From: Dysgonamonadaceae bacterium
GTDB taxonomy: Bacteria; Bacteroidota; Bacteroidia; Bacteroidales; Azobacteroidaceae
DNA length: 25,648 nt
NCBI GenBank assembly: GCA_031284225.1
Contig: JAITAH010000196.1
Location: 1-25,648, forward strand
Reading direction: 5' to 3'
Shown in pieces: positions 521-18,412 of the stretch. Position numbers and translations under genes: made by a program. The notes under the pieces are model-generated. The model made no database searches and was not told the origin of the DNA. It saw only the letters and a list, made by a program, of their open reading frames with translations. Numbering within the stretch: the stretch's first letter is position 1; every line of letters starts with the position of its first letter.

Positions 521-2029
521 CTAATATTTGTTGATTTCTTTTAGTAAATATTCCTGTCCCAGAAGTTCGCCGCAAGTGTTCAGTGCAGTAAGCGTCGTAC
601 CGACCATTCCGTGCAGGTCGAGGTTTTGTCCGCTCAAGAGCAGGTTTCTCAACTTGGTGCGCACCGGAATATGCGACAGCAGGATGTTGTTGCAATCTTT
701 TTTCACACCATAGAGAGCGCCTTCTTTTTGATTATAAAAATCCCTGATAGTGAGCGGACTTGAACTATACGCGCTTTTAATACACGCGCGTATATCCGGA
801 TATATTTTTTCCAATTTGTCTATAATTTTTTCCTGGCAACGTTTTTTGAACGCCAAATACTCTTCGCCGCGCTTGCCCACAGTGGTATTTTCCCACCGGC
901 GAACGGTGTTGAAATTCATGATGCAATTGACGATCATTTTCGAGGCGTACTTGTCATTCATTGTTACCGGCGGAGTGAGATACATCATTCCGGTTGGGCG
1001 CCATTCTTCGGGTGGAAAATAATCGCCCTGTCGCCATACATCTTTATAATCGTCTATGTAATAGCTGGTATGATTGATATAAGGAAATGTTTCCGGTTTG
1101 AATATAATATACACGGTAAAAGCCGAATAGCTGTTTGAGATACTGTCAATTCGTTGCCAATACGAGCGTTGAATTTTCGAAGTGTCCATCAGTTTGAACA
1201 TCGAAGAAGGATGTATTGACGAAATATACCAGTCGGCGGTATGCCGTTCGTTGTCAACGGTTTCAATATATTGTATTGCTTTGTCTTCGATTTCGATATG
1301 TTTCACGCCGCGCCGGGTAAAGACTTTTCCGCCGGATTGTTCAATAATTTCCACCAAAGCGTCTGCCATCTGCTGACTGCCACCAACAAAACGAGCCGCA
1401 CTTTCGATATACAAAATACTGATAATAGCATGAATATAAACAGGCGTAGAATATTGATCGCCGCCATAAAGCGGGTTGACAAATGCCAAAACGTAGCGTA
1501 AACGTTCATTTTCAGTAAAAGAATCAATAAAATCGCCCACACTCTGTATAAATTTTTCCAAAGGTTGAATATTGAAATTATTATTTTTTAAGTTGTAGTA
1601 TTGATCCTCGCGCACAATGTCGTACATTGCCTCCACATAGCGTGCAATATTTTCGCGTTCTTCGGGAAAATCCTGCGCCAGCGTATTTATGAAACATTCA
1701 GCGCCTTTGGCGTATTTATACGTTTTACCATCGCTGCCAATTTGGAAACGCTCAAAACAGTCGTCATCACTGGGTAAAATGGAAAGTTTGTCCATTATAC
1801 CCAAATATGAGCAAATTTTGTTCAGCACGCCCCCTTGCTGAAAAGCGCCGATAACGTGCATACCGGTTTCAAATTCAATACCTTCGCGTCGAAAATGATG
1901 TAATCCTCCACCGATCTTGTAATGTTGTTCAAAAACCTGTACATCATAGTTTTCTTTACTCAAAATCGCAGCACAAAACAGCCCTCCTATTCCGCCGCCG
2001 ATAACGATTACCGATTGTTTTTTATCCAT
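521..2029 (-). CDS. CrtI-like FAD-dependent oxidoreductase, second of a tandem pair
   Basis: This 502-residue protein has an N-terminal FAD-binding fold with GGGIGG at residues 11-16, the ribose-binding acidic residue E34, and a second glycine patch IGGGLHHF near 39-46. The C-terminal segment SGQNLDLHGMVG followed by CGELLG is the FAD-contacting end typical of phytoene desaturase / carotenoid isomerase / retinol saturase relatives. It is clearly a paralogue of the gene immediately upstream, sharing RREGxxFETGMHxIG and the same C-terminal signature. Its start overlaps the upstream stop by 8 bases. Relatives desaturate, saturate or isomerise conjugated polyenes, so action on the aryl polyene chain or its lipid is a reasonable inference; substrate and direction are not shown by the sequence. 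No transmembrane segment is evident. Confidence 0.9.
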   Translation of the reverse strand: MDKKQSVIVIGGGIGGLFCAAILSKENYDVQVFEQHYKIGGGLHHFRREGIEFETGMHVIGAFQQGGVLNKICSYLGIMDKLSILPSDDDCFERFQIGSDGKTYKYAKGAECFINTLAQDFPEERENIARYVEAMYDIVREDQYYNLKNNNFNIQPLEKFIQSVGDFIDSFTENERLRYVLAFVNPLYGGDQYSTPVYIHAIISILYIESAARFVGGSQQMADALVEIIEQSGGKVFTRRGVKHIEIEDKAIQYIETVDNERHTADWYISSIHPSSMFKLMDTSKIQRSYWQRIDSISNSYSAFTVYIIFKPETFPYINHTSYYIDDYKDVWRQGDYFPPEEWRPTGMMYLTPPVTMNDKYASKMIVNCIMNFNTVRRWENTTVGKRGEEYLAFKKRCQEKIIDKLEKIYPDIRACIKSAYSSSPLTIRDFYNQKEGALYGVKKDCNNILLSHIPVRTKLRNLLLSGQNLDLHGMVGTTLTALNTCGELLGQEYLLKEINKY

Positions 2030-3533
2030 TTTCTTTAACCGTTTTTATCTGTTCTACAATATGATTTACGCCTAACAGTTCTCCTGAAGTAAGAATCGCG
2101 CCGATAATTACGCCCAAAATGCCGTGCGAATTCACATTTTGCCCGGTCTGAAACAAATTGGGAATACGTGTGCGTTGCGACACCAACGAATGTATTGATT
2201 CGTTACAATCGGGCAGTACGCCGTACATCGAGCCGCGTTCGGTTCCCGTATAATCAAGATAAGTGAGCGGCGACGAAGTGTAATAATGTTCTATATGACT
2301 GCGCGTTCCGGGAATTTGCTTTTCCAAAAGGTCTAACAGTTTTTCCGCTTTCTCGCGTTTAAATTCTTCGTAATCTGCTCCACGCCGACCGACTTTCGTT
2401 CCCGCCCATTGCGCCACATCATCAAAATTCATATAAGTAATCAATACTGCAGAATTAGTAAACTGTTGATTTTCAGACGAACGCAGGTGCATATACAGAA
2501 AACTTGAAGGATAAGTCGCTTGGTCGTAATTTCTAACTCGCCAAACATCGGATGGCGATTCGTAATGGTAAAGATTGCTGTTAAAATACGGTTCGGCGTT
2601 TTTTTTGAAAGCAATATAGACGGTGAAATTGGAAGTTGTATTATTCAAACTTGTAATCCTGTCGCGATAAGATTTGCGTAACAAATTGCTTTCGACGATT
2701 TCCACCATTCTTGCGGGATGCATATTAGATATAAAATAATCGCCTGCGATGGTTTCTTTATTCCTGTTTTTGATTGTAACGCTAACCGCTTTTTTGTCAT
2801 CGCAATTAAGTTTTACAACTTCGGCCGACAGCACAACTTCGCCACCCATCGCCCGAATTGATTTTATCAAAGAATGGGCAATGGTTTCGCTACCACCCAC
2901 AATGCGGTAAGCGCTACAATTGTAAAAATTATTGATAAATGCAGGAATGTATATGGGCATTTTTCCACGTTCGCCGGCATAAAGCGGCAAATTTCCCGCC
3001 AATACAAGGCGTAATTTTTCATTTGGCGTAATGGTTTCGAGAAAACTGTCATAACTGTGTTTTATGTGCGCAGGATTGAGCATTATCGGTTCGTTCGTCG
3101 TTTTCAACGAGTAAAACGGCGAATTTTCAGTTATTTCGCGAATAACCTGCCAATATTTTTGCAAATTATCCTTTTCATTCGGAAAAAATTTTCCCAAATA
3201 TTCCGTGAAATTTTCTACTCCGTTGGCAAACGGAAATCGCTCGCTGCCAATAGAAATCAAATCGTAAGCCTCGCGGTTAAGCGCACACAGTTTCACGTCG
3301 GACAACAAGTTTAAATAACGAAAAAAGTTATGCAATAGTTGCCCTTCTTCCATACTGCCGATGTAGTGCATACCGGTTTCAAACTTCATGCCGCGCCGGG
3401 TGAAGGTTTGCAGACAGCCGCCGGGTTGCGCGTTTTTTTCCAAAATCGTTACTTTGCAACCATTTTTGGCAAGAATATAACCGCAAGTCAATCCACCCAG
3501 TCCGCTACCTATAATGACGATGTGCTTTTCCAT
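2022..3533 (-). CDS. CrtI-like FAD-dependent oxidoreductase, first of a tandem pair
   Basis: This 503-residue protein carries GSGLGG at residues 9-14, E32 at the end of the second strand, PGGCLQTF near 37-44, and the C-terminal FAD motif TGQNVNSHGILG followed by SGELLG. It belongs with phytoene desaturase-like and retinol saturase-like flavoproteins. It overlaps the 3' end of the MMPL exporter gene by 25 bases and the next FAD gene by 8 bases, so all three are probably co-translated. The start at 3533 is supported because the FAD motif begins eight residues in, as is usual for the family. Similar oxidoreductases are known near flexirubin and aryl polyene genes in Bacteroidota, but the step catalysed is not settled; desaturation, saturation, isomerisation or hydroxylation of the polyene are all possible. 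Confidence 0.9.
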   Translation of the reverse strand: MEKHIVIIGSGLGGLTCGYILAKNGCKVTILEKNAQPGGCLQTFTRRGMKFETGMHYIGSMEEGQLLHNFFRYLNLLSDVKLCALNREAYDLISIGSERFPFANGVENFTEYLGKFFPNEKDNLQKYWQVIREITENSPFYSLKTTNEPIMLNPAHIKHSYDSFLETITPNEKLRLVLAGNLPLYAGERGKMPIYIPAFINNFYNCSAYRIVGGSETIAHSLIKSIRAMGGEVVLSAEVVKLNCDDKKAVSVTIKNRNKETIAGDYFISNMHPARMVEIVESNLLRKSYRDRITSLNNTTSNFTVYIAFKKNAEPYFNSNLYHYESPSDVWRVRNYDQATYPSSFLYMHLRSSENQQFTNSAVLITYMNFDDVAQWAGTKVGRRGADYEEFKREKAEKLLDLLEKQIPGTRSHIEHYYTSSPLTYLDYTGTERGSMYGVLPDCNESIHSLVSQRTRIPNLFQTGQNVNSHGILGVIIGAILTSGELLGVNHIVEQIKTVKENG

Positions 3534-6500
3534 TCCGATTTACTGTAAATTGTTAAATTTTCAGGCAAGCCTGCACAGGCGCGGGCTATGGCGACTTTAT
3601 CTTCATTTTCCTCAATAGCAATCACTTGCGTTTCTTTATTTGCCAGCGCATATAAGAAACTGAACACGCCGTAACCGTTGTTTTCGATTAAAGCGCCGGC
3701 GGACGTATGTGATACGCCTTTGTCCCAGTCTTTAAGTCCTTTTAAGTTTTCCAATTCCTTTTTCGCGCCATGCCAAATTTCATTACCTTTATACATATAA
3801 TTATACAACACAAACGATTGGAAGTATTCCCGCGTTTCTATTTTGCGACACATTTCAGCAAACGTATTGCGATAATACCGGCGAATTTGTTTTGCCCGCA
3901 TAGCATAATCAGTAGCAAAACGACTATCGTCGAGCGTGATACGCCGATGCGTCTCCACTGTAATTTTACCTTCGCGCAATAGAAAATCATTTTTCGGGAG
4001 TACATGTCCTACGCCGTGAAGAAATACCGGCACAATATCCAATTTCAATCGTTCCGCCAAATAGAACGCCCCGCGATGAAAACGCCCAATATTACAATCC
4101 GGCGAGCGCGTACCTTCGGGGAAAATTACGATGGAATATCCGCGCTGCACGGCATTGGAAAGCCGGTCGATACTGTTTTCAATACCTTGCGATACGGGAT
4201 AGAAATCGGCGTAACGGATAATCCGCCCATAAAACGGACTGCGCCACACCCAATCGTTTGTAAGGATTATCAATTTCGGCGTGAGCATCATCAAACACAT
4301 TAAGTCAAGATGCGATTGATGATTGCTGATAATTATAGCAGGTTTGTCAAACGTTTCGCCGGAAAGGTTTTCGTAATGAAATTTTACACCCGGAACACGT
4401 TGTATCACAAATTCGGCTATTTTCTTTAAGAAGTTATGATAACGAAGTTTATTGTTTTCTCTATGCTTTTTGCGGAAACCTAACAAGATAAAGCCGTAAA
4501 CAGTTGTCAATAAACTACCTGCAAGGAAAACGACAAAGGCATAGGTCATCATCCAAAAGCGTTTGAGAGTCCAAGGCGCTTCGCGCGGATTTCCTTTCTT
4601 TGTTGTCAAAAACTTGAAAATGAGGGGCGGAAAGAGATATGCGCAAGCTACTACCGTTACCATTCCCACAATCGTCAGTTGTGCCAACGAGCGCATTGCA
4701 GGGTGTTTGGCAAAAATCAACATTCCTATCGCAATAAACAGAATGGTCGCCGACAAAATGATAGAATTTTTGAACGATGCAAGCATTTTCTTGCGGTAAG
4801 TGTATTCGTATATCAGTCCTTCTGTAACGAAAATCGTATAATCGTCGCCTTGCCCGAAAATAAATGTGGCCAAAATGATATTGACGATGTTGAATTTCAA
4901 ATCAAAAATATTCATCAGTCCTAAAATCCACACCCAACCGACTGTGAGCGGAACAAAAGTCAAAATAGCTAACTCAATGCGTCCGAATGAGAAAAATAAA
5001 AACACAAATACAATAAACCCGCAGAGGTACAGCACGTTATTAAAGTCTTTGGAAAGCGCATTAACCATTTTTATGGCAATAGACGTATCGTCGAAAGTAA
5101 AAACAGAATCCTCTTGTTTTGAAAACTGATTTTCAATAGACTTAATCTGTTTTTCATTGCAATTTAAGATCGTGTAAATAAATGTTTTGTCATCAGAAAT
5201 GGAAAAATAGTTTTCACCCATATTTTTATAAATGGGGGCAAAATACTCAAAATCCTGCGGCTGAAAATCAGTATTTAGCGCTTCGACAAAATTTTCAAAA
5301 ACGCCCTTATTAAATCCCTGTTTTTCGGACGTTTGATTAATATTTTTAATTACAATATCTTTTCTATTTTTCCAAAATTCCTTCCATCGTTCATTTTTTT
5401 GTTTTTGCAACTCTTGGGATGGAAAGAAATTGCCAATTCCCGACACGTTAACGGACGTATCAAATAGACAATAACGTTCATAGTTTTCCAATGCATCGTC
5501 AATCGTTTTCCCTGTAGTTATCACATACAGCGTTTCGCCTTTTCCTTGATTTTCTTCAATCAATTTATTCATTTCCGCACGCTGTTCAACAGTCATATAA
5601 TTGATTTCCTGTAAATTAGTTTCAAATTTCGTTCCAAAACTGAAAAAGAACAGTATGACGGTAAAAATCAGAAAAACATAAACGATTATTTTATTTTTTT
5701 CAGGGGAAAATTCGGCTAATCGCCCAAATCGGAAAGGATTCAAGCATTTATCCGGTTTTAATGTTAACAAATGCGGCAGAAAGAGCAACACAAACAAGAT
5801 CGTTCCTACCAGTAACAAAGAGGCAAACAGCCCCAAATCCTTCATGGCGTCGCTACTGATAAACAAAAGAGAAAGAAACGCGCCAACCGTAGTTATATTT
5901 CCTATTAACAGCGGATTAACAACTTCTTTGAGAGTACGTTTGACGTCAGCCACGTGTTGATTGTGCGCTAAAAAATGCAGCGGATAATTGATAGCAATAC
6001 CCAAAATAATTGAAGCAATACCGATGGCGATTATCGAAACCGTCGATTTGAAGAGCACAATCACGCCGAGCGAAAACAATGCCCCAAAAACCACCGACAA
6101 GGCAATGAAAAACAAAGCTTTGACATTCCGGAAAAAATAGAACAACAACACGAGAATCAAAATGAGCGCAATAGAAACGGCAAAAACAGAGTCGCTTTTG
6201 AGTTGCTCCGCATTGGTAATCGACACAAGCGTTGCTCCAAAAGGCGTTACTTTTATTTCCCCGGAAAATTCTTTAACCGTTTTGTTTGCAGCCGAATAGA
6301 TCTCATTTGCCAGCAGCTTATTATTAGCCGTTTCGCTAACGGAATATTTCGAGGTTATGATTACCAGACATTCTTCTTTATTGTTGAAAATAAATCCATT
6401 ATCCGTATTATAACCGTCGTTTTGTTTGAAACCTTCGAGTTTTTTCAGCGCATTTTCCGAGAAATGCAGCGGGTCGCGCACAATTATCTCGCGAACAAAA

Positions 6501-7003
6501 CCGCCCATCGGAGACGTCAACAATTCTTTATCGGCTTTCAGCAGGCTTTCAATATTTTGAGGACGGATCAGAGTGTCGATCCGGGCATAATCTTCTTCTT
6601 CAAGGAAAAGCGGCAAGTTTTGAGTAATGAAATTGGTTACTTCATTCAATTTTTCGTTATCAACTTCATACATCAACGCTTCGATATGTCTTGCGCTGTC
6701 GCTTTCCTGTAAAATTTCAGCAAAACGGGTAGCAGCCTCAGCCAGCAAATCCGCATCAACGTCGTTTATCGTGTCGTTTTGCGAAAAAGTAACAATGATT
6801 TTGTTTGCCGCTCCAATATGCTGATACGCTTCGTTAATTTGCTTGTTATCAGCATCGTTAGGCAAAAACGAAGAAATGTCTTCTACAAACGAAATACGTG
6901 AAGCGGATACTGCCAACAGGGCGACCATCCCCGCCAAAACCAACCACAACAGCAATTTTCGACGCTTTAAAAAAATGAATATTTTGATAAACAGGTTGCT
7001 CAT
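3509..7003 (-). CDS. MMPL/RND-type exporter fused to a PlsC-like acyltransferase and a Rossmann-like tail
   Basis: The protein has 1164 residues. Residues 1-800 form an MMPL/RND exporter: membrane helix near 17-33, periplasmic domain to about 270, a helix bundle at about 272-410, a helix near 438-455, a second periplasmic domain to about 650, and a second bundle at about 655-800 containing GQGDDYTIF near 718-725. A further hydrophobic helix pair lies near 817-842. Residues 850-1060 are a 1-acylglycerol-3-phosphate-type acyltransferase with the H895-x4-D900 motif (NHQSHLD) and FPEGTRS at 961-967. The last 90 residues (NNGYGVFSFLYAL, then VIAIEENEDKVAIARA) resemble the start of a class I methyltransferase Rossmann fold but stop early. 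It follows the glycosyltransferase by 4 bases. Separate exporter (ApeM-type) and acyltransferase genes are known from aryl polyene clusters; here they are one chain. The likely role is acylation and export of the pigment lipid at the inner membrane. Confidence 0.93.
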   Translation of the reverse strand: MSNLFIKIFIFLKRRKLLLWLVLAGMVALLAVSASRISFVEDISSFLPNDADNKQINEAYQHIGAANKIIVTFSQNDTINDVDADLLAEAATRFAEILQESDSARHIEALMYEVDNEKLNEVTNFITQNLPLFLEEEDYARIDTLIRPQNIESLLKADKELLTSPMGGFVREIIVRDPLHFSENALKKLEGFKQNDGYNTDNGFIFNNKEECLVIITSKYSVSETANNKLLANEIYSAANKTVKEFSGEIKVTPFGATLVSITNAEQLKSDSVFAVSIALILILVLLFYFFRNVKALFFIALSVVFGALFSLGVIVLFKSTVSIIAIGIASIILGIAINYPLHFLAHNQHVADVKRTLKEVVNPLLIGNITTVGAFLSLLFISSDAMKDLGLFASLLLVGTILFVLLFLPHLLTLKPDKCLNPFRFGRLAEFSPEKNKIIVYVFLIFTVILFFFSFGTKFETNLQEINYMTVEQRAEMNKLIEENQGKGETLYVITTGKTIDDALENYERYCLFDTSVNVSGIGNFFPSQELQKQKNERWKEFWKNRKDIVIKNINQTSEKQGFNKGVFENFVEALNTDFQPQDFEYFAPIYKNMGENYFSISDDKTFIYTILNCNEKQIKSIENQFSKQEDSVFTFDDTSIAIKMVNALSKDFNNVLYLCGFIVFVFLFFSFGRIELAILTFVPLTVGWVWILGLMNIFDLKFNIVNIILATFIFGQGDDYTIFVTEGLIYEYTYRKKMLASFKNSIILSATILFIAIGMLIFAKHPAMRSLAQLTIVGMVTVVACAYLFPPLIFKFLTTKKGNPREAPWTLKRFWMMTYAFVVFLAGSLLTTVYGFILLGFRKKHRENNKLRYHNFLKKIAEFVIQRVPGVKFHYENLSGETFDKPAIIISNHQSHLDLMCLMMLTPKLIILTNDWVWRSPFYGRIIRYADFYPVSQGIENSIDRLSNAVQRGYSIVIFPEGTRSPDCNIGRFHRGAFYLAERLKLDIVPVFLHGVGHVLPKNDFLLREGKITVETHRRITLDDSRFATDYAMRAKQIRRYYRNTFAEMCRKIETREYFQSFVLYNYMYKGNEIWHGAKKELENLKGLKDWDKGVSHTSAGALIENNGYGVFSFLYALANKETQVIAIEENEDKVAIARACAGLPENLTIYSKSEWKSTSSL

Positions 7004-8772: not shown

Positions 8773-9126
8773 TTACTTCGCAATTAACATTACGCCCAAA
8801 ATGATCGACCCGACGCCCAGCCACCGCGTTAACGGCACTGTCTCGTGGAAAACAAAAATTGCAGCTAAAACTCCGAAAATATATGCAATCGCCGTAATCG
8901 GATAAGCCACCGAAAACTCGAAATGTTTCAGAATATAAGCCCATAAAATGGTTGCTAAAATCAGATTAACGCCACTGGCCAACAGCCACCAGTTGGTCAG
9001 AATATCCGCAATATATGCCCATGAAAGAGTGAATTTGCCGATTTTTTGTACTGCAAATTTGAAACACACTTGTCCTCCTGATAAAAACAGGCATTGCAAT
9101 ATGGTTAAAAGTGTTATTTTCAGCAT
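8773..9126 (-). CDS. Four-helix EamA/SMR-like small membrane transporter
   Basis: This 117-residue, very hydrophobic protein has four predicted membrane helices (about 3-20, 33-54, 62-90 and 97-115). The segment YILKHFEFSVAYPITAIAY at about 64-82 and the end GVGSIILGVMLIA match half-size EamA/DMT proteins, including ArnE/ArnF-like flippase subunits. The membrane-embedded Glu of classical SMR drug pumps is not seen in helix 1. Its start overlaps the chain-length-factor gene by 7 bases. Because it is co-encoded with a GT2 enzyme, exporters and LolA, it may flip a lipid-linked intermediate, probably as a dimer; this is inference from the family and neighbours. Confidence 0.87.
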   Translation of the reverse strand: MLKITLLTILQCLFLSGGQVCFKFAVQKIGKFTLSWAYIADILTNWWLLASGVNLILATILWAYILKHFEFSVAYPITAIAYIFGVLAAIFVFHETVPLTRWLGVGSIILGVMLIAK

Positions 9127-10139
9127 TTTGATAAGAGTATTAATGAATGATTTTTGCCTTCAAAATTATTGTAAAACAAGATTTTCCGTAACGACGAAAA
9201 ATTTTCCATCGCTGCGTTCACAAACAAATGTTCGGGAATTTTTCCGTTTTTCAAACACATTGCCGCCACATAAATTCCTAAAGCCGGAGCCGTGTAACTT
9301 TCACCGAAAATATGCTTGTAATGTAGTAACGGAATATTTGGAAACTTTTTTTTGCAAATTTCATAATAACGGCGGTCGTTTTCGGACTGTCCATTGGCGC
9401 CGATCATAATGGCGTCGAAGTCTTGCAAGGGCGAGATTAATCGCTCTTCTGCGAAATTACCGTAAAACATTTCAAGGTTTTCAATTTTGCACAATGCATT
9501 TTTCGTATTTTCGCTCGATAACATCATCGCAACGGCTGTTTCGCCGGCAAAACTCTGTTTTGTATCTGAAAATTCAAAATATCCTGTCTTTTTTAGCAGT
9601 TTAAAATAATCGGGCGTCATTTCGTCGTGTCCGCCAACGAGAGCTGTGGTAATTTTTCCGCTTTGCAATTGAAAGAAAGCATCTTGCAACGCGCTTTCAA
9701 AAGAAACGCCCTTCTGAACGTAAGTGGAATTATATCCGTAACATTTGACGTCTATCGCCACAAGCGACGAAACAGTGTTGTGCGTAGAATTCATAAAATG
9801 CGTAGGTTTCAGCATTTCCTCGCCGCCAAAAACGAGGTCTTTGAGAAAAAATTCCGTATTTTCAATGCAGCCTAAGCCGGTGCCTGTAATAATCGCATCG
9901 GGGGTTGTATGCTGGGCGCCCGTACTTTGTTCCATCGCCTTGCGTGAAACTAAAAGAGCGCGTTTCAGCAGTTTTCCGTATCGCCGCACTTCCAATGCCG
10001 TAAAATATTCTTTATAATTCGGCTCAATCGCACGTACATATTCTTCATTATAAAAAATCGGATTTTCGATCCAATCTTCGCGCAAAGGATTTTGAGCAGA
10101 AATTTGAGCGGCGGATAATATGTAAATGGGGTTATTCAT
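9120..10139 (-). CDS. Chain-length-factor-like degenerate ketosynthase
   Basis: This 339-residue protein has a beta-ketoacyl synthase fold but none of the catalytic residues. Where active ketosynthases read xxACxS, this one has QKGVSFESA (Gly144 or a neighbour replaces Cys). The first His motif NAHGTGT is IGANGQSEN (Asn249), and the second, TGH, is FGE (Glu280). The structural elements GGHDEMTPDYF and GETAVAMML are kept. It overlaps the stop of ketosynthase 3 by 4 bases (ATGA), the classical arrangement of a KS/CLF heterodimer. In aryl polyene clusters the equivalent is ApeC, partner of a catalytic ketosynthase. Its likely role is to shape the cavity that sets polyene length. It is shorter than catalytic ketosynthases (about 400 residues). 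Confidence 0.9.
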   Translation of the reverse strand: MNNPIYILSAAQISAQNPLREDWIENPIFYNEEYVRAIEPNYKEYFTALEVRRYGKLLKRALLVSRKAMEQSTGAQHTTPDAIITGTGLGCIENTEFFLKDLVFGGEEMLKPTHFMNSTHNTVSSLVAIDVKCYGYNSTYVQKGVSFESALQDAFFQLQSGKITTALVGGHDEMTPDYFKLLKKTGYFEFSDTKQSFAGETAVAMMLSSENTKNALCKIENLEMFYGNFAEERLISPLQDFDAIMIGANGQSENDRRYYEICKKKFPNIPLLHYKHIFGESYTAPALGIYVAAMCLKNGKIPEHLFVNAAMENFSSLRKILFYNNFEGKNHSLILLSKC

Positions 10140-11326
10140 ATTTTGCTAAATATTAAGCTCGTATCATTTCCTCCGAAACCAAAGGAATTGGAAAGAACGT
10201 GTTGTAGGGACGTTATTAATCGTTTCCCTGCGGACGGCGTAAAACACAATTCTTCCATTTTATTCTTAAAATTCAGATTTTCAGGAATAAAATTATTTTG
10301 CAATGCCAAAATGGAAATTACCGCCTCTACGCCGCCCGCCGCACTTGTCGTATGTCCTGTGAATGCTTTTGTAGAACTTACCGGCGGAATTTTATCGCCA
10401 AAAAGTCGCTGAATAGCTATGCCTTCGGATAAATCGTTGTTCGCAGTGCCGGTTCCGTGCGCATTAATGTAGCTAATATCAGAGAGTTGTAATCCGGCAT
10501 TTTCGATCGATTTTTTCATTGCTAAAAATGCGCCTTCGCCATTGGGAGACGAGGCGGTTTGATGGTAGGCGTCGCAAGTGTTAGCATAACCGGAAAGCGC
10601 TGCAAGCGGTTTTGTCTGCATATTGTTTTCGCGCTGCATGACAACATACGCCGCGCCTTCGCCTAAATTCAGTCCTGCGCGGGTGGCGTCAAATGAACGA
10701 CAACATTCTTTATCCAAAATCATCAGCGTGTTGAAGCCGTTCAGGTGGAATTTGGTAATGCTCTCAGCGCCGCCCGCAACGACAATATCCGCTCGTCCGT
10801 TTTTCAACATTTCCGCACCGAGTAAAATGGCGTTTGCTGCTGATGAACAAGCTGTTGAAATAGTATAAACCTGAGAAAAAATACCGAAATAATCGGCAAT
10901 CATTTCGGTACAAGCGCCGCAGTCGTGAGTGGAAATGTAGGCGTTTTTAGTGTTGTTTTCTATAAAATCGAGGTAAAACTGCTCGCTTTTATCCATACCG
11001 CCAACCGTAGTGCCTGAAATCAGCGTTATTCGTTTTGTTTCAGCGGATTGCGAGTCAATTCCGCAATTCCGCAACGCTTCTTGTACCGCCAACATTCCCA
11101 TCAACGAAGTGCGGGTTGTCGGTCGATTTTCGGGAATATTCAACAGGCGCATGATTTCTTCGTTAGTCAGTTTCACTTCGCCGACGGGAAATTCGGTATG
11201 AGCGGTTTTCAAATAACGCACAAAATCAATACCGCTACGGCTTTCCCGCAACGACTGCAATGTTTCTGCAACGTTGTTGCCGATCGCCGAAACAATGCCC
11301 ATTCCACGAATGAGAATTTTAGTCAT
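10136..11326 (-). CDS. Beta-ketoacyl-ACP synthase 3 (FabF-like, aryl polyene type)
   Basis: This 396-residue type II ketosynthase has an intact Cys-His-His triad: C160 in STACSSAA, H290 in NAHGTGT, and H325 in STKAFTGH with the supporting K320. GGAESITKFHLNGF and LNLGEGAAY complete the FabF pattern. It follows ACP 2 with a one-base overlap (TAATG) and overlaps the catalytically dead chain-length-factor gene by 4 bases, so ACP 2, this enzyme and the CLF are likely made together and work as one extending unit. It performs decarboxylative condensation of malonyl-ACP with the growing polyene in the cytoplasm. It is one of three ketosynthases with full active sites in this operon. Confidence 0.95.
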   Translation of the reverse strand: MTKILIRGMGIVSAIGNNVAETLQSLRESRSGIDFVRYLKTAHTEFPVGEVKLTNEEIMRLLNIPENRPTTRTSLMGMLAVQEALRNCGIDSQSAETKRITLISGTTVGGMDKSEQFYLDFIENNTKNAYISTHDCGACTEMIADYFGIFSQVYTISTACSSAANAILLGAEMLKNGRADIVVAGGAESITKFHLNGFNTLMILDKECCRSFDATRAGLNLGEGAAYVVMQRENNMQTKPLAALSGYANTCDAYHQTASSPNGEGAFLAMKKSIENAGLQLSDISYINAHGTGTANNDLSEGIAIQRLFGDKIPPVSSTKAFTGHTTSAAGGVEAVISILALQNNFIPENLNFKNKMEELCFTPSAGKRLITSLQHVLSNSFGFGGNDTSLIFSKI

Positions 11327-11580
11327 TATTTTGTTCTGTTTGCCGCAATATAATCTGCCATAACTTTTATTGACACAAAAATATCTTTTCCCTGTGCAGG
11401 ATCTTTTATTTTGATGCCGTAGTTTTTTTCCATCAGCACGATAAGTTCAAGCGCGTCGATAGAATCTAAACCAAGATCGCCAAAAAGAGTGTCGTTTTCG
11501 TCGATGTCTTCAGGTTTAACATCTTCGAGATTTAATACTTCAATAATTTCTTCTTTTAATTTTACGATCAAATTGTCCAT
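11326..11580 (-). CDS. Acyl carrier protein 2
   Basis: This 84-residue acidic four-helix carrier protein has the phosphopantetheine attachment serine at S40 in GDLGLDSIDALE. It resembles FabF-partner ACPs of aryl polyene clusters, which usually encode two ACPs (ApeE/ApeF). The stop overlaps the start of ketosynthase 3 by one base, and the gene begins 14 bases after the half-ketosynthase. It presumably carries the aryl starter, malonyl units and the growing polyene. The two ACPs of this operon differ clearly in sequence, which suggests different partners rather than simple gene dosage. Confidence 0.95.
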   Translation of the reverse strand: MDNLIVKLKEEIIEVLNLEDVKPEDIDENDTLFGDLGLDSIDALELIVLMEKNYGIKIKDPAQGKDIFVSIKVMADYIAANRTK

Positions 11581-11594
11581 TTTCGTTAATTAAT

Positions 11595-12176
11595 TTATTT
11601 ATTGTATAATTCATTTAATTTATTTTCTTCCAAAATCATTTTTTCCTCTCCGCTTTCTTTTGCCAAAAACATAAAAATCTCGTGCGTATTACCCAAACTT
11701 TCTACCCATGCAACAAGGGCAAGAGTTGTCAATCGATCGGAAAAAGTATTGTTGACAATGCGGCAAATTTGCTTTGCATCAAAATGTTCGCAAACGTAGA
11801 ATGAAGTTTCGCCGTAAAATTTATTGCGAATGGCGATTTCTCCCGCAACAATGTTCGGCAGTGTGTAAACAAAGAGCGAGGGCGATGGGAAATAATTGTC
11901 GTTGTCTTGTATTGTCGTCTGATACTGCATGTCTATTTCGAGCGAACTGCTTCGGTTAAAGCAAATAACAGAAACATCTTCGCGCCCGTCGATGCTCTCT
12001 TGAGAGGAAATGCCGGAGGATTTCAATAGCATTTCCGATGCAAGAAATCCTAATTTAGACAGATTATCCATTTTGAAGAATTTAGGATAATCTACCTGTA
12101 AATTCCGAAAACATTCGATCATTGCTGTCGAAGAGTCGAATGATAATTTGATATGTTTTTCTATAAATAACTTCAT
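11595..12176 (-). CDS. Half-length ketosynthase-like protein
   Basis: I place the start at 12176 (MKLFIEKHIKL), 7 bases after the upstream stop, rather than at upstream ATGs inside ketosynthase 2. The 193-residue product resembles only the N-terminal half of a ketosynthase or CLF: DVSVICFNRSSSLEID, then PSPSLFVYTLPNIVAGEIAI, then NKFYGETSFYV parallel the CLF stretch HFMNSTHNTVSSLVAIDVKCYGYNSTYV in order and spacing. At the active-site position it reads CEHFDA. The C-terminal half with both histidines is missing. The gene is open and conserved in layout with its neighbours, so it does not look like a decayed remnant. It sits directly after ketosynthase 2 and may be a structural partner of it. 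The homology is my own visual alignment and the function is unknown. Confidence 0.8.
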   Translation of the reverse strand: MKLFIEKHIKLSFDSSTAMIECFRNLQVDYPKFFKMDNLSKLGFLASEMLLKSSGISSQESIDGREDVSVICFNRSSSLEIDMQYQTTIQDNDNYFPSPSLFVYTLPNIVAGEIAIRNKFYGETSFYVCEHFDAKQICRIVNNTFSDRLTTLALVAWVESLGNTHEIFMFLAKESGEEKMILEENKLNELYNK

Positions 12177-12183
12177 AATTAAC

Positions 12184-13338
12184 TCAGTTACAATCAGCAT
12201 TTTTTTCAAACAACACAGCCGCATTGACGCCGCCAAAACCCGAAAGCAATTTAATAAAATACCGTTTATTGGAAAGATGATTCTCTCGCAATATATTTAT
12301 TGGATTCTCAAAGTTTTGTTCATTATAGTTGAACGATTTAAGCGCCCTGTTTTCTTGCAATGCACACATTGAGACGATGCTTTCTAATACGCCTGCCGCC
12401 CCTAATGTATGCCCATAATATCCTTTTAACGAATTGACAGGCGCCGATTGCAAACCTGCTCGCCCAATTGCAACCGCTTCCATGGCGTCGTTGTAAGAGG
12501 TTGCTGTTCCGTGTGCATTTATAAATGCAATTTGTTCTTTATCAATATTTTCTATAATATTTCTCAATGCGCGAAAGCTGCCTTCTCCTGTTCGGGAAGG
12601 ACCGGAAATATGATTTGCATCATTGCGGATAACTCCATTAATCAAGCAAACCCTATGCTTTGTGTTTTGCATCTTGCGACCATAAATGATTGTTGCCACC
12701 GCTTCGCCTAAATTCAATCCGCAACGTTCTTTGTCGAACGGGCGACAAATGTCGGGCGACAAGGCTTTGAACGACTGAAAACCTGAAATAATGAATTTGG
12801 ATAGAAAATCTGCGCCTACGACTACCGCGTAATCAAAAGGACCGTTTTCCAATTCGCGCATCGCGGTAATTTGAGCCGCTGCTCCTGAAATACAAGCATT
12901 TGAAACGACAATCGGCACATTCGGATTTCCAAAGAAACGAGCAATTGTTTTTGAGGTATGCCAAAGAAATACCGGCAGAGCTAAAGTTCGCTTTGTTTCT
13001 GTATCGTCTAACAAATCGACATTTCCTTTCGTAGTTGAAAGAACAAAAATTGTTTTTTCACCGGACAAGTCAATATTTGCCTGCTTGTTTGCATCAAGAA
13101 CCGACAAAATAGCCGCTTTTTCAAGGTTGGTCGCTAAACCCGACAGTTTTGCGTTCGAGCATTCATCATTTAAGCGTTCTTTATCGATCAACGAAGCTAC
13201 AAATGCTTCCGGCAAATCGTATAATGTGTTGGCTTCGTAACGTTTAAGTCCGGAAACACCTCGTTTTACATTTTCAAAGTTTTTTGCTGTTGTAAAACCA
13301 AGAGAGGAAATAATATTTGTGCCAAGAACATTCATCAT
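12184..13338 (-). CDS. Beta-ketoacyl-ACP synthase 2 (FabF-like, aryl polyene type)
   Basis: This 384-residue ketosynthase has C149 in SNACISGAAA, H276 in NAHGTATSYND, and H310 with K305 in LKGYYGH, so all catalytic residues are present. LNLGEAVA and GPSRTGEGSF fit the family. It is the most divergent of the three active ketosynthases: the N-terminus lacks the usual GxGxxSxxG pattern and reads GTNIISSLGF. The start overlaps the thioesterase stop by one base (TAATG), and the half-ketosynthase gene follows after 7 bases. It may perform the first condensation with the aryl starter (role of an extra ketosynthase such as ApeR) or pair with the half-length protein; both ideas are inference. Confidence 0.93.
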   Translation of the reverse strand: MMNVLGTNIISSLGFTTAKNFENVKRGVSGLKRYEANTLYDLPEAFVASLIDKERLNDECSNAKLSGLATNLEKAAILSVLDANKQANIDLSGEKTIFVLSTTKGNVDLLDDTETKRTLALPVFLWHTSKTIARFFGNPNVPIVVSNACISGAAAQITAMRELENGPFDYAVVVGADFLSKFIISGFQSFKALSPDICRPFDKERCGLNLGEAVATIIYGRKMQNTKHRVCLINGVIRNDANHISGPSRTGEGSFRALRNIIENIDKEQIAFINAHGTATSYNDAMEAVAIGRAGLQSAPVNSLKGYYGHTLGAAGVLESIVSMCALQENRALKSFNYNEQNFENPINILRENHLSNKRYFIKLLSGFGGVNAAVLFEKNADCN

Positions 13339-13775: not shown

Positions 13776-14199
13776 TATCCGTTATTGCTATTTTCATTTC
13801 ACAGGATGTAATCAATTCGTTTCCAACATGAACAGTTGCATCGACCAGCGTTGTTTGAAAAACTTCCTGTATCGTTTTTATTTGCGTAACCAGCGTTTCA
13901 TTAATGAGCGGCAAACGCAAAAATTCCTGATTACGTATTGCTCCTATAAAACCGATTTTTATCGCATTGCGATACACGCATTTATTGATGTAACCGATTC
14001 GTGCTGCGCAGGTTTGGGCAATATTTTCGGCAATTCCCGCTTCAGATAAAACTCCGTTGTCGCAAAACAGATTATCCTCTTTCACTGTAAATGCAGTTCG
14101 TGTTGTTTGCGGGTCGCAATACAGCAATTTATCTACCATAACAAACGGCGGACGTTGCGGCAAAAGTTCTTGTATGTCAATTATTTCAAAGTCAGTCAT
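13762..14199 (-). CDS. FabZ-like hotdog dehydratase with Gln in place of the catalytic His
   Basis: This 145-residue protein has the FabA/FabZ start LLPQRPPFVMVDKLL at residues 12-26, where canonical FabZ has LPHRxPFLLVD. The catalytic His is thus Gln15. The position of the catalytic Glu seems kept as E58 in IAENIAQTCAA. It resembles the ApeP-type dehydratase of aryl polyene clusters. The start overlaps the methyltransferase stop by 4 bases, and the thioesterase begins inside its 3' end. The dehydration step is certainly needed for a polyene, so this protein is probably active with the hotdog partner at 7754-8116, or uses a modified mechanism. The lost His is visible in the sequence; the consequence is inference. 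Confidence 0.88.
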   Translation of the reverse strand: MTDFEIIDIQELLPQRPPFVMVDKLLYCDPQTTRTAFTVKEDNLFCDNGVLSEAGIAENIAQTCAARIGYINKCVYRNAIKIGFIGAIRNQEFLRLPLINETLVTQIKTIQEVFQTTLVDATVHVGNELITSCEMKIAITDIDEK

Positions 14200-15284
14200 C
14201 TTCCGATTTTACACTGGATTATCGAATGTCCCTGTCCTATTCCGTCGTAAATATGTTCCACAACTAAACCTGTTGTTTCAATACAGCGAATCATATCTTC
14301 GCTGTGATACATTTTGCTGTTGCCGTTGGCTAAAGCCGTGAAATAAAGCGAAATTTGAGCGAGGGCGTAGGCGGCGGTCTCGAAGCGTTGCCTGTCCCAA
14401 AGCGTTTCCATAATAAAAAGTTTGGAGTTCTTATTCATCGACTTACAAGCACGAGTAAGAATACTTATCACTTCTTCTTCTGAAAAACAATCAAGGAACT
14501 GACTCATCCAAATCGCCTCAAAATCGGATGGGAATAAAACATTTTTATCCAATATATTGCAACCGTATCCGCTAATTCTTTCCGCACCTTTTTTGTCGGC
14601 GATTTGGCAACGCATCATTTCGAGTTGCCGAGGCAAATCTATTATCGTAACTTGCACATTTTCATCAAAATCAACGCAGCGCAACGCCCAACGTCCGGTG
14701 TTTCCACCAACATCAAGCAATGTTTTCGGACGGTCGGCGAAGACAATTTGTAATGCTTCGTCGAAAGATTCATCGCTGTAAAAATGGTCGAAAGCCAACC
14801 AGGATTTTTGCACATTTTCAGGCAGTTCGGACAATCCTTCGTAAATGGTCGCCCAATTGCCAAAAACTTTCAAGCCTTCCGGCTTACCGTTTAACAGGGC
14901 TTCTTCGAGGCGAAAAAGTCCGAGATAATTTACGTCCTGATTAAAATCGACATTGACACGAATAGCGGGGTCGTTGAGTAGAAACCACCCGGCTTTTGAG
15001 CAGATAAATTTGCCGTCTTTTAACAGAATCGTACCAATCGTTAGAGACGATTCGAGCAAACATTGTACCGCATAATGCGACAGATTGGTTTTTTCGGCAA
15101 CTTCTTTTATCGTCAAGCCATCGACAGAATCAAGCAGGCATTGCAAGATACCAAACTTAATCATTAGCCTCGACACTTGAAAAACGATTGGGCCTTGCGA
15201 AATTTCGTGCGCCAAACGCTGCGCTTCCAAAGCCGTCAAACGCTCTTTGGTATATCTTTTTTCTAATGCAGGGAAAAGTTTCAT
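14196..15284 (-). CDS. SAM-dependent methyltransferase (O-methyltransferase fold)
   Basis: This 362-residue protein has an N-terminal winged-helix dimerisation region (about 20-110, with LTIKEVAEKTNLSHYAVQCLLE) as in plant- and polyketide-type O-methyltransferases. It is followed by a class I SAM domain with motif I LLDVGGNTG at about 189-197, IIDLPRQ about 25 residues later, and ISGYGCNILD before the catalytic region. The usual catalytic His of O-methyltransferases is not obvious. It starts 4 bases after the acyltransferase stop. Aryl polyene clusters commonly encode one methyltransferase (ApeB) that methylates the aryl head group; that is the best guess here. A C-methyl or an O-methyl product cannot be told apart from sequence. 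Confidence 0.88.
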   Translation of the reverse strand: MKLFPALEKRYTKERLTALEAQRLAHEISQGPIVFQVSRLMIKFGILQCLLDSVDGLTIKEVAEKTNLSHYAVQCLLESSLTIGTILLKDGKFICSKAGWFLLNDPAIRVNVDFNQDVNYLGLFRLEEALLNGKPEGLKVFGNWATIYEGLSELPENVQKSWLAFDHFYSDESFDEALQIVFADRPKTLLDVGGNTGRWALRCVDFDENVQVTIIDLPRQLEMMRCQIADKKGAERISGYGCNILDKNVLFPSDFEAIWMSQFLDCFSEEEVISILTRACKSMNKNSKLFIMETLWDRQRFETAAYALAQISLYFTALANGNSKMYHSEDMIRCIETTGLVVEHIYDGIGQGHSIIQCKIGR

Positions 15285-16475: not shown

Positions 16476-17693
16476 CTATAATTTCTTAATTATTAACGCT
16501 GAATTTGTTCCGCCAAACCCAAACGAATTGGATAAGATCAAATTCAATTTTTTATGAACGGTTTTTGTAACAATATTCAGATTTTTAGAATATTCATCCG
16601 GCGTTTCAAAATTGATATTCGGCGCGATAAATGAGTTTTGCATCATCAATAGCGAATATGCTATTTCGCTTGCGCCCGCCATCCAGCATTCGTGTCCGGT
16701 CATTGATTTGGTGCTGCTAATTTGTGTTTTGTTGTCGCCGAAAATTTGGCTAAGCGCTATTGCTTCCACAGCATCGCCCTGTGGTGTGGAAGTAGCGTGA
16801 GCGTTCACGTAATCAATCGCTTTCGCCGGCACTGCCGCATCTTTCAATGCGCGTTCCATTGCGATGATGCAACCTCTATCGCTTGGTTGCGAAATTTGCA
16901 TCCCATTGCTCGAAAAGCCGTATCCGACTATTTCCGCATAAATTGTTGCGCCACGTGCAACGGCGTGATCATAGTCTTCGAGTACCAGTGTCGCTGCGCC
17001 GCCGCTGGGTACTAATCCATCTCTACTTTTGTCGAACGGACGGCTTGCCTTTGTCGGGTCGTCGGTGTGGACAGAAAACGCGCTCAATGCATCGAAAGAC
17101 GCCATCGAATGAATGTTGGTTTCCTGTGCGCCGCCGCAAAGTACCATTTTTTGAAGTCCCTGTTTAATAAACATATAACCCAATCCTATGGAATGTGAAC
17201 CGCTTGCGCAAGCCGCCGAAATGGTCATATTGATGCCGCGCAGTTTGAAAATCGTTGAGAGATTCATGGTTATGGTCGAATTCATCGATTGGAAAATATA
17301 ACCCGACCCCATCAGTTGCGTATCGCGTTTTTCCACCACAATATTATAGGATTCGATCACAGGTTTTGCCGACGAATCGTTGCCATAGAAAATACCTACT
17401 TCGCTTTTTTCGAGATAATCCATATCCACGTCTGCATCTTTCAACGCTTCAAGCGTTGCCACATAAGCATACTCGCCTTCTTCCGCCAAACCGATGCGCA
17501 AACGGCGGTCAAGTACGCCTTTTAGCTGTGGATGTTCCACCATGCCGGTTAGCGGCGATCGGTAACCGTATTTTGTTCTTTCAGGATCGACGCCAATTCC
17601 CGATTTGCCTGCGTAAAGCGATTTAGCGACTTCGTTCCTATTTTTACCAATGCAAGAATAGATACCCACTCCTGTGATTACAACCCTTTTCAT
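16476..17693 (-). CDS. Beta-ketoacyl-ACP synthase 1 (FabF-like, aryl polyene type)
   Basis: This 405-residue protein is a full-length FabF-type ketosynthase with C162 in SAACASGSH, H299 in NAHATSTPQGD, K329 and H334 in SSTKSMTGH, and a C-terminal NSFGFGGTNSALI. It is the most FabF-like of the ketosynthases here. The start overlaps the ketoreductase stop by 4 bases (ATGA), which couples KR and KS synthesis. In enterobacterial aryl polyene clusters a ketosynthase (ApeO) next to the FabG-like reductase (ApeQ) is typical. It extends the chain by malonyl-ACP condensation in the cytoplasm. Which of the three active ketosynthases pairs with the CLF at 9120-10139 is uncertain; ketosynthase 3 is the physical neighbour. 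Confidence 0.95.
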   Translation of the reverse strand: MKRVVITGVGIYSCIGKNRNEVAKSLYAGKSGIGVDPERTKYGYRSPLTGMVEHPQLKGVLDRRLRIGLAEEGEYAYVATLEALKDADVDMDYLEKSEVGIFYGNDSSAKPVIESYNIVVEKRDTQLMGSGYIFQSMNSTITMNLSTIFKLRGINMTISAACASGSHSIGLGYMFIKQGLQKMVLCGGAQETNIHSMASFDALSAFSVHTDDPTKASRPFDKSRDGLVPSGGAATLVLEDYDHAVARGATIYAEIVGYGFSSNGMQISQPSDRGCIIAMERALKDAAVPAKAIDYVNAHATSTPQGDAVEAIALSQIFGDNKTQISSTKSMTGHECWMAGASEIAYSLLMMQNSFIAPNINFETPDEYSKNLNIVTKTVHKKLNLILSNSFGFGGTNSALIIKKL

Positions 17694-18412
17694 AAACCTC
17701 CGCTGATTGAAATTATTTGACCGGTTATATATCCGGCTTTTTCACTTGCCAAAAACGCCGCCAATTCCGCCACTTCTTCGGGTTTGCCGAAACGCTGCAT
17801 CGGCACAAGTTTTTTGAGTTCATCTTGCGGCAAATCCTTTGTCATATCGGTTTCGATAAAGCCGGGCGCTACGGCATTGACAGTTACGCGCTTTTTGGCC
17901 GTTTCTAATGCGAGCGATTTCGTCATTCCGATAATGCCGGCTTTGGCGGCCGAATAATTGGTTTGTCCGCTCATTCCGGTTATGCCCGAAATGGATACCA
18001 CATTTATAATGCGTCCGAATTTTTTATTCATCATATATTTTACCAAAAAGCGAGCGGCATAGAATGCTCCGTTTAAATGGGTATTAAGTACATTAGTCCA
18101 TTCTTCATCAGTCATCCAAAACATTAGATTGTCTCGACGGATTCCCGCATTATTTACCAAAACCGAAACATATTCGTCGGGATTGCGTTCCATCCATGCC
18201 GACAGAGCGGCGTTTGTTTCCTCACATTTTGCCACGTCAAAAGGTAAAAGTTCGGCTTTTCCGCCGTTTTGCTCAATCAACCGTTTTGTTTCTTCGGCGG
18301 CGGCTTGGTTCGATTGATAATTTACCAAAACCTCAAAGCCATCTTCGGCTAATTTCAAGGAAATGGCTCTGCCTATACCTCTTGACGCTCCTGTTACTAA
18401 TGCATATTTCAT
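17690..18412 (-). CDS. FabG-like 3-oxoacyl-ACP reductase
   Basis: This 240-residue short-chain dehydrogenase has TGASRGIG at residues 7-14 for NADPH, NNAG at 87-90, and the catalytic S140, Y153 and K157 (NYSAAK). The ending YITGQIISISGGL is typical of FabG. It starts one base after the ammonia-lyase stop and overlaps ketosynthase 1 by 4 bases. It should reduce 3-oxoacyl-ACP intermediates of the polyene (ApeQ-like role) to the 3-hydroxy form before dehydration. A general FabG could look the same, but its position inside the operon argues for pathway-specific use. Confidence 0.95.
   Translation of the reverse strand: MKYALVTGASRGIGRAISLKLAEDGFEVLVNYQSNQAAAEETKRLIEQNGGKAELLPFDVAKCEETNAALSAWMERNPDEYVSVLVNNAGIRRDNLMFWMTDEEWTNVLNTHLNGAFYAARFLVKYMMNKKFGRIINVVSISGITGMSGQTNYSAAKAGIIGMTKSLALETAKKRVTVNAVAPGFIETDMTKDLPQDELKKLVPMQRFGKPEEVAELAAFLASEKAGYITGQIISISGGL

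Follow-up and report, generated by a model that had tools for sequence, protein, structure and literature searches.

The protein encoded on the minus strand at positions 11595-12176 of a contig from a Dysgonamonadaceae bacterium (JAITAH010000196.1; the window, 25,648 nucleotides) is probably a half-size subunit of the chain-length factor (CLF) type that forms an asymmetric heterodimer with the adjacent ketosynthase (KS), KS2. We refer to this protein as the half-KS. The same gene cluster encodes two further ketosynthases (KS1 and KS3), a CLF, and two acyl carrier proteins (ACP1 and ACP2). The observations behind this assignment are the predicted fold of the half-KS, its loss of catalytic residues, its co-occurrence with the cluster, its fusion to and movement with KS2, and the kinship of KS2 itself.

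The open reading frame (ORF) of the half-KS is intact, encodes 193 residues, and lacks the C-terminal half of a ketosynthase. A plus-strand reading of the same interval was dropped due to stops. An AlphaFold2 model (predicted local distance difference test, pLDDT, of 89.6) resembled ketosynthases. The best Foldseek matches were CLFs, among them ApeC, which serves aryl-polyene synthesis as a half-size CLF, and the ishigamide CLF was the best match by both Foldseek and VIA. These matches covered only the N-terminal half of the ketosynthase. A profile of the half-KS family had no match among PDB sequences up to an E value of 10. The earlier note on this DNA had described an intact N-terminal ketosynthase half without its C-terminal half, which was borne out by the ORF, the model, and the structure matches; the note had also said that an unrelated fold would speak against its proposal, and the predicted fold was ketosynthase-like.

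Conservation was assessed in 82 sequences, consisting of the window, L083, L084, and 79 of the 80 loci described below (L035 fell below the 70% coverage limit). The nucleophile column, residue 131, held H in 20 sequences, E in 17, A in 9, D in 9, S in 8, K in 6, N in 5, Q in 4, G in 2, T in 1, and C in 1. The half-KS failed the Cys-His-His triad test for an active FabF-type ketosynthase because the C-terminal half is absent and the Cys is not conserved. Mean column conservation was 0.86 for residues 96-128, 0.77 for 29-55, 0.41 for 129-150, and 0.34 for 151-193. The N-terminal thiolase half of ketosynthases carries dimer-forming elements, and we take the ketosynthase counterpart of segment 96-128 to form the dimer contact and line the pocket of the neighboring subunit.

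We compared gene order in 80 loci, the best 80 of at least 578 confirmed places (from at least 597 pattern matches) in a genome scan. Counting fused genes, KS2 was directly upstream of the half-KS in 77 loci and ACP2 came after it in 75. The exceptions for KS2 were L003, where the contig ends and KS2 is on another contig, L006, and L073. KS2 and the half-KS were a single open frame in 16 of the 80 loci, and the half-KS and ACP2 in 8 (L011, L012, L017, L019, L020, L021, L022, and L029), which suggests that ACP2 is the carrier for the pair of KS2 and half-KS. No fusion of the half-KS to KS3 or CLF was found in the 80 loci. KS3 and CLF formed one chain, a natural single-chain KS-CLF, in 28. A search with the half-KS part of the L069 fusion gave 5049 proteins of fusion-compatible length; among the 120 fusion-length proteins listed, 119 had PF02801 and one, of 307 residues, had the ACP domain PF00550. 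Mapped on a KS3 tree of 79 rows, 15 of them fused, the KS2-half label required 8 changes, 3 of which are forced by well-supported branches; a KS2 tree, also of 79 rows, required 6. Because these were quick trees with long branches, we claim only that the fusion was gained or lost several times.

The two genes also stayed together where the usual order was broken. In L071, the fused chain had shifted as a unit to the opposite side of KS3-CLF, behind DH2. KS3 and CLF were on other contigs in both L058, where the fused gene was flanked by a capsule-type gene and TamB/Omp85 genes, and L064, where KS2 and the half-KS had an acyltransferase gene before them and an EmrE-like gene after them, near GrpE/DnaJ. 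In L077, KS2 and the half-KS ended the first part of the cluster, and no match to ACP2, KS3, or CLF was present in the next 10 kb.

KS2 retained its catalytic residues, with the Cys in 78 of 79 sequences and the His, Lys, and His in all 79 (the window, L083, L084, and 76 of the 80 loci; L001, L003, L006, and L073 were missing). In a tree of 42 rows, KS2, KS3, and ApeO were on one side of a branch with support of 100/98 and FabF, FabB, ApeR, and KS1 were on the other; this split was also recovered with 82 rows. Within the first group, KS2 joined ApeO (92/81), but the pairings of KS2 with KS3 and of KS3 with ApeO were not rejected (p-AU 0.126 and 0.123, respectively). ApeO has ApeC, ApeR is homodimeric, and the CLF goes with KS3, so that the half-KS would be what remains as a partner for KS2.

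Homologues of the half-KS numbered 5806 at E ≤ 0.001 among 5866 candidates, and 3 of 31 aligned homologue rows (P0007, P0008, and P0078) ran on from the C-terminal part of a KS2. Among 296 sampled Bacteroidota genomes, 33 had a half-KS match; 25 of these were strong (E at most 1e-42), and the other 8 were weak KS frames. The reductase FlxB, a cluster marker, was over its cut-off in 25 of the 296, exactly the 25 with a strong half-KS, and no cluster without the half-KS was found among them. The earlier note had regarded absence from otherwise identical clusters as evidence against its idea of a "mini chain-length factor" for KS2. That idea, which the note offered beside a scaffold role, is well supported by the CLF-like fold matches, the 16 fusions, the persistence of the half-KS beside KS2 when gene order breaks, and the kinship of KS2 with CLF-partnered ketosynthases. 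Plasmids of Aureispira and Persicobacter carry the half-KS with its neighbors in matching order; its annotation is "beta-ketoacyl synthase N-terminal-like domain-containing protein" in the former and "hypothetical protein" in the latter. Judged by sequence, the half-KS looks like a separate, unnamed family tied to flexirubin-type clusters.

From these observations we infer a heterodimer in which the half-KS, having kept the N-terminal thiolase half but neither the nucleophile nor the C-terminal half and its catalytic histidines, would leave the complete Cys-His-His site to KS2. It would cap KS2 at the usual place of the second subunit, stabilize KS2, and line the acyl pocket of KS2 at its far end, with ACP2 as the putative carrier and perhaps with a role in polyene length. 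The KS2-half and KS3-CLF heterodimers would then carry out condensations in parallel within one flexirubin-type polyketide synthase, to which the FabB-like KS1 would contribute a third condensing enzyme.

Several results weigh against a pairing with KS2. VIA did not tell CLFs from other ketosynthases. Sequence profiles linked the half-KS neither to ApeC (E 0.097 over 50 columns) nor to KS2. The model of the natural L069 fusion had a predicted template modeling score (pTM) of only 0.75, and the fold search with this fusion compares single chains. In a distance correlation (mirror tree) of 41 nonredundant loci, out of 54 in which each of the five proteins reached 70% coverage, the partial r with the half-KS was 0.385 ± 0.122 for KS2 and 0.312 ± 0.102 for KS3, which does not separate the two partners. 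KS3-CLF was still nearby in L071. With 1.5-kb flanks, 21 of the 25 strong genome loci showed KS2; the four that did not were L095, L105, L107, and L110, and L140, from the genome of L095, shows KS2 farther away. In L006 (9069-11696), the half-KS is solitary: its neighbors are genes for an integrase and an RlmL-like methyltransferase, and KS2 and CLF are on other contigs of that genome.

Other results on this side bear on which protein the partner is. The half-KS could pair with KS3 or CLF, or bridge KS3-CLF and ACP2, with its position beside KS2 being a matter of operon history. A methyltransferase gene in L138 and L139, and two other frames in L140, lie between KS2 and the half-KS while half-ACP2-KS3-CLF is unbroken. 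In L073 (genome G298), the half-KS is with ACP2-KS3-CLF and a close KS2 was not found in the metagenome-assembled genome, which also had no FlxB over the cut-off; this could be either an incomplete assembly or a real change of partner. Half-KS distances also track KS3 nearly as well as KS2. However, the half-KS was fused to KS2 in 16 of the 80 loci and to KS3 or CLF in none, KS3 already has its own CLF and is often joined to it, and L058 and L064 keep the half-KS with KS2 while KS3-CLF is on another contig. We consider a KS3 or CLF partner unlikely.

The half-KS could instead serve as a scaffold or for ACP docking, perhaps as a homodimer, and deliver ACP2 to the condensing enzymes with no KS-CLF-type dimer being formed. 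The 8 half-ACP2 fusions and the nearly constant position of ACP2 would fit such a role, but fusions to KS2 were twice as common, the most conserved stretch (96-128) is a ketosynthase core segment and not a new surface, and the half-size relatives ApeC (PMC8358021) and AmcG (PMC10698177) are described in the available parts of these reports as binding a ketosynthase. These points make a docking role improbable.

It is more improbable still that the half-KS alters the reaction and not the chain length, in the manner of AmcG, the proposed cyclization factor of cispentacin synthesis. AmcG is likewise a ketosynthase partner without functional motifs, and its NCBIfam model (NF058659) has 157 positions. 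However, this model had no match at E ≤ 0.1 to the window or Persicobacter half-KS and scored 13.0 bits, against a cut-off of 80, for the Aureispira homologue; moreover, the chromophore of flexirubin is, in the available parts of PMC3992019, an aryl-polyene chain for which no ring closure is described. Finally, a decaying fragment of a former ketosynthase would, like the half-KS, lack the active site and one half of the fold, but 9 of 40 tabulated positions were invariant in all 82 sequences, all 25 marker-positive genomes had the half-KS, and G297 retains it alone on another contig, so that decay is hardly credible.

Returning to the pairing with KS2, a wider reading is possible but doubtful: that flexirubin-type synthases run two KS-CLF-type heterodimers, each serving its own ACP and a different stretch of the polyene. 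The KS2-half pair would then be a minimal "one and a half" ketosynthase, often in one chain, with a CLF family not previously described whose half size evolved independently of ApeC.

The window cluster is, by its gene content, a flexirubin-type (aryl-polyene) biosynthetic cluster. Its genes, all on the minus strand, are in the order ammonia-lyase, FlxB reductase, KS1, ACP1, acyltransferase, FlxJ methyltransferase, dehydratase, thioesterase, KS2, half-KS, ACP2, KS3, and CLF, followed by a small membrane protein, LolA, a dehydratase, a glycosyltransferase, an exporter, and two proteins of the flavin adenine dinucleotide (FAD) type. FlxB and FlxJ equivalogs over their cut-offs, KS, ACP, and weak FabZ matches were present. 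Family scans covered 10 window proteins; the ammonia-lyase, ACP1, the acyltransferase, and the genes after CLF were named by the look of their sequences. The main features were as follows.

11595-12176, minus strand: half-KS, 193 residues; the N-terminal half of a thiolase fold, proposed as a half-size CLF and probably equivalent to FlxL.
11793-11891, minus strand: most conserved half-KS segment, residues 96-128; homologous to the ketosynthase segment preceding the nucleophile.
12184-13338, minus strand: KS2, 384 residues; Cys149, His276, Lys305, and His310 all present; proposed catalytic partner of the half-KS.
11326-11580, minus strand: ACP2, 84 residues; joined to the half-KS in 8 of 80 relatives.
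10136-11326, minus strand: KS3, 396 residues; catalytic subunit of the KS3-CLF pair.
9120-10139, minus strand: CLF, 339 residues; PF13723-related, joined to KS3 in 28 of 80 relatives.
16476-17693, minus strand: KS1, 405 residues; clusters with FabB/FabF/ApeR (homodimeric type).
17690-18412, minus strand: FlxB-family reductase, cluster marker; NF053542, 382.8 bits (cut-off 340).
14196-15284, minus strand: FlxJ-family methyltransferase, cluster marker; NF053543, 610.8 bits (cut-off 560).

Three side observations concern cluster layout. In L038 and L043, KS1 plus second acyltransferase, ACP1, and dehydratase copies are inserted between KS2-half-ACP2 and KS3-CLF. Window positions 3509-7003 encode a 1164-residue exporter-like protein that apparently runs on into a domain resembling acyltransferases, judged by eye from the motifs NHQSHLD and EGTRS. 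Positions 521-3533 hold two overlapping FAD-dependent oxidoreductase genes, alike in kind, and one open frame matches both (FAD1-FAD2) in several relatives.

Flexirubins are chemotaxonomic marker pigments of Bacteroidota (PMC3992019), and the open PMC literature, in its available parts, was not found to assign individual roles to the several ketosynthases of the pathway. The proposed pairing would give one of these ketosynthases a concrete partner, and it predicts that one condensing subunit has escaped notice under the label of a "hypothetical" or "ketosynthase" protein. The natural KS2-half chains would be simple constructs for asking the minimum size of a chain-length factor.

The half-KS probably corresponds to FlxL of Chitinophaga pinensis, to judge from gene order (KS2-methyltransferase-half-ACP-KS3-CLF, as in L138 and L139). 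The available parts of a 2014 report list FlxL only among putative ketoacyl synthases (PMC3992019). The earlier note knew of no assigned function, which held for the half-KS and FlxL in the titles, abstracts, or passages of the open PMC literature; it did not hold for the kind of protein, since half-size ketosynthase partners are already known from ApeC and AmcG. AmcG is reported to be insoluble alone, soluble as a heterodimer with the ketosynthase AmcF, without functional motifs, and a proposed cispentacin cyclization factor (PMC10698177, in its available parts). It resembles the half-KS, a proposed ketosynthase partner, in being short and motif-less, but its family differs by NCBIfam score and its pathway is different. 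Full-size CLFs (ishigamide, 6KXD/6KXE/6KXF chain B; actinorhodin, 1TQY chain B) share the N-terminal fold and the role of ketosynthase partner proposed for the half-KS, but their chains are far longer, at 358-402 residues.

The closest comparison is ApeC, a half-size CLF that works with ApeO in aryl-polyene synthesis, in which ApeR is a homodimer (PMC8358021, in its available parts; PDB 6QSP and 7F28). The half-KS would work like ApeC as a half-size ketosynthase partner, yet by sequence it is not filed in the ApeC family. ApeC belongs to PF13723 (L082 ApeC, 191 bits), whereas the half-KS had no PF13723 match at E ≤ 0.1 in any of the three tested (window, Aureispira, and Persicobacter), and ApeC aligns much better with the 339-residue CLF of the window (E 1e-10) than with the half-KS. 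Unlike the setting of ApeC, the half-KS cluster already has a KS-CLF pair. Taken together, the kind of protein, a half-size ketosynthase partner, is known, and what is new is the half-KS family, its fusion to KS2, and the proposed presence of two KS-CLF-type pairs in one cluster.
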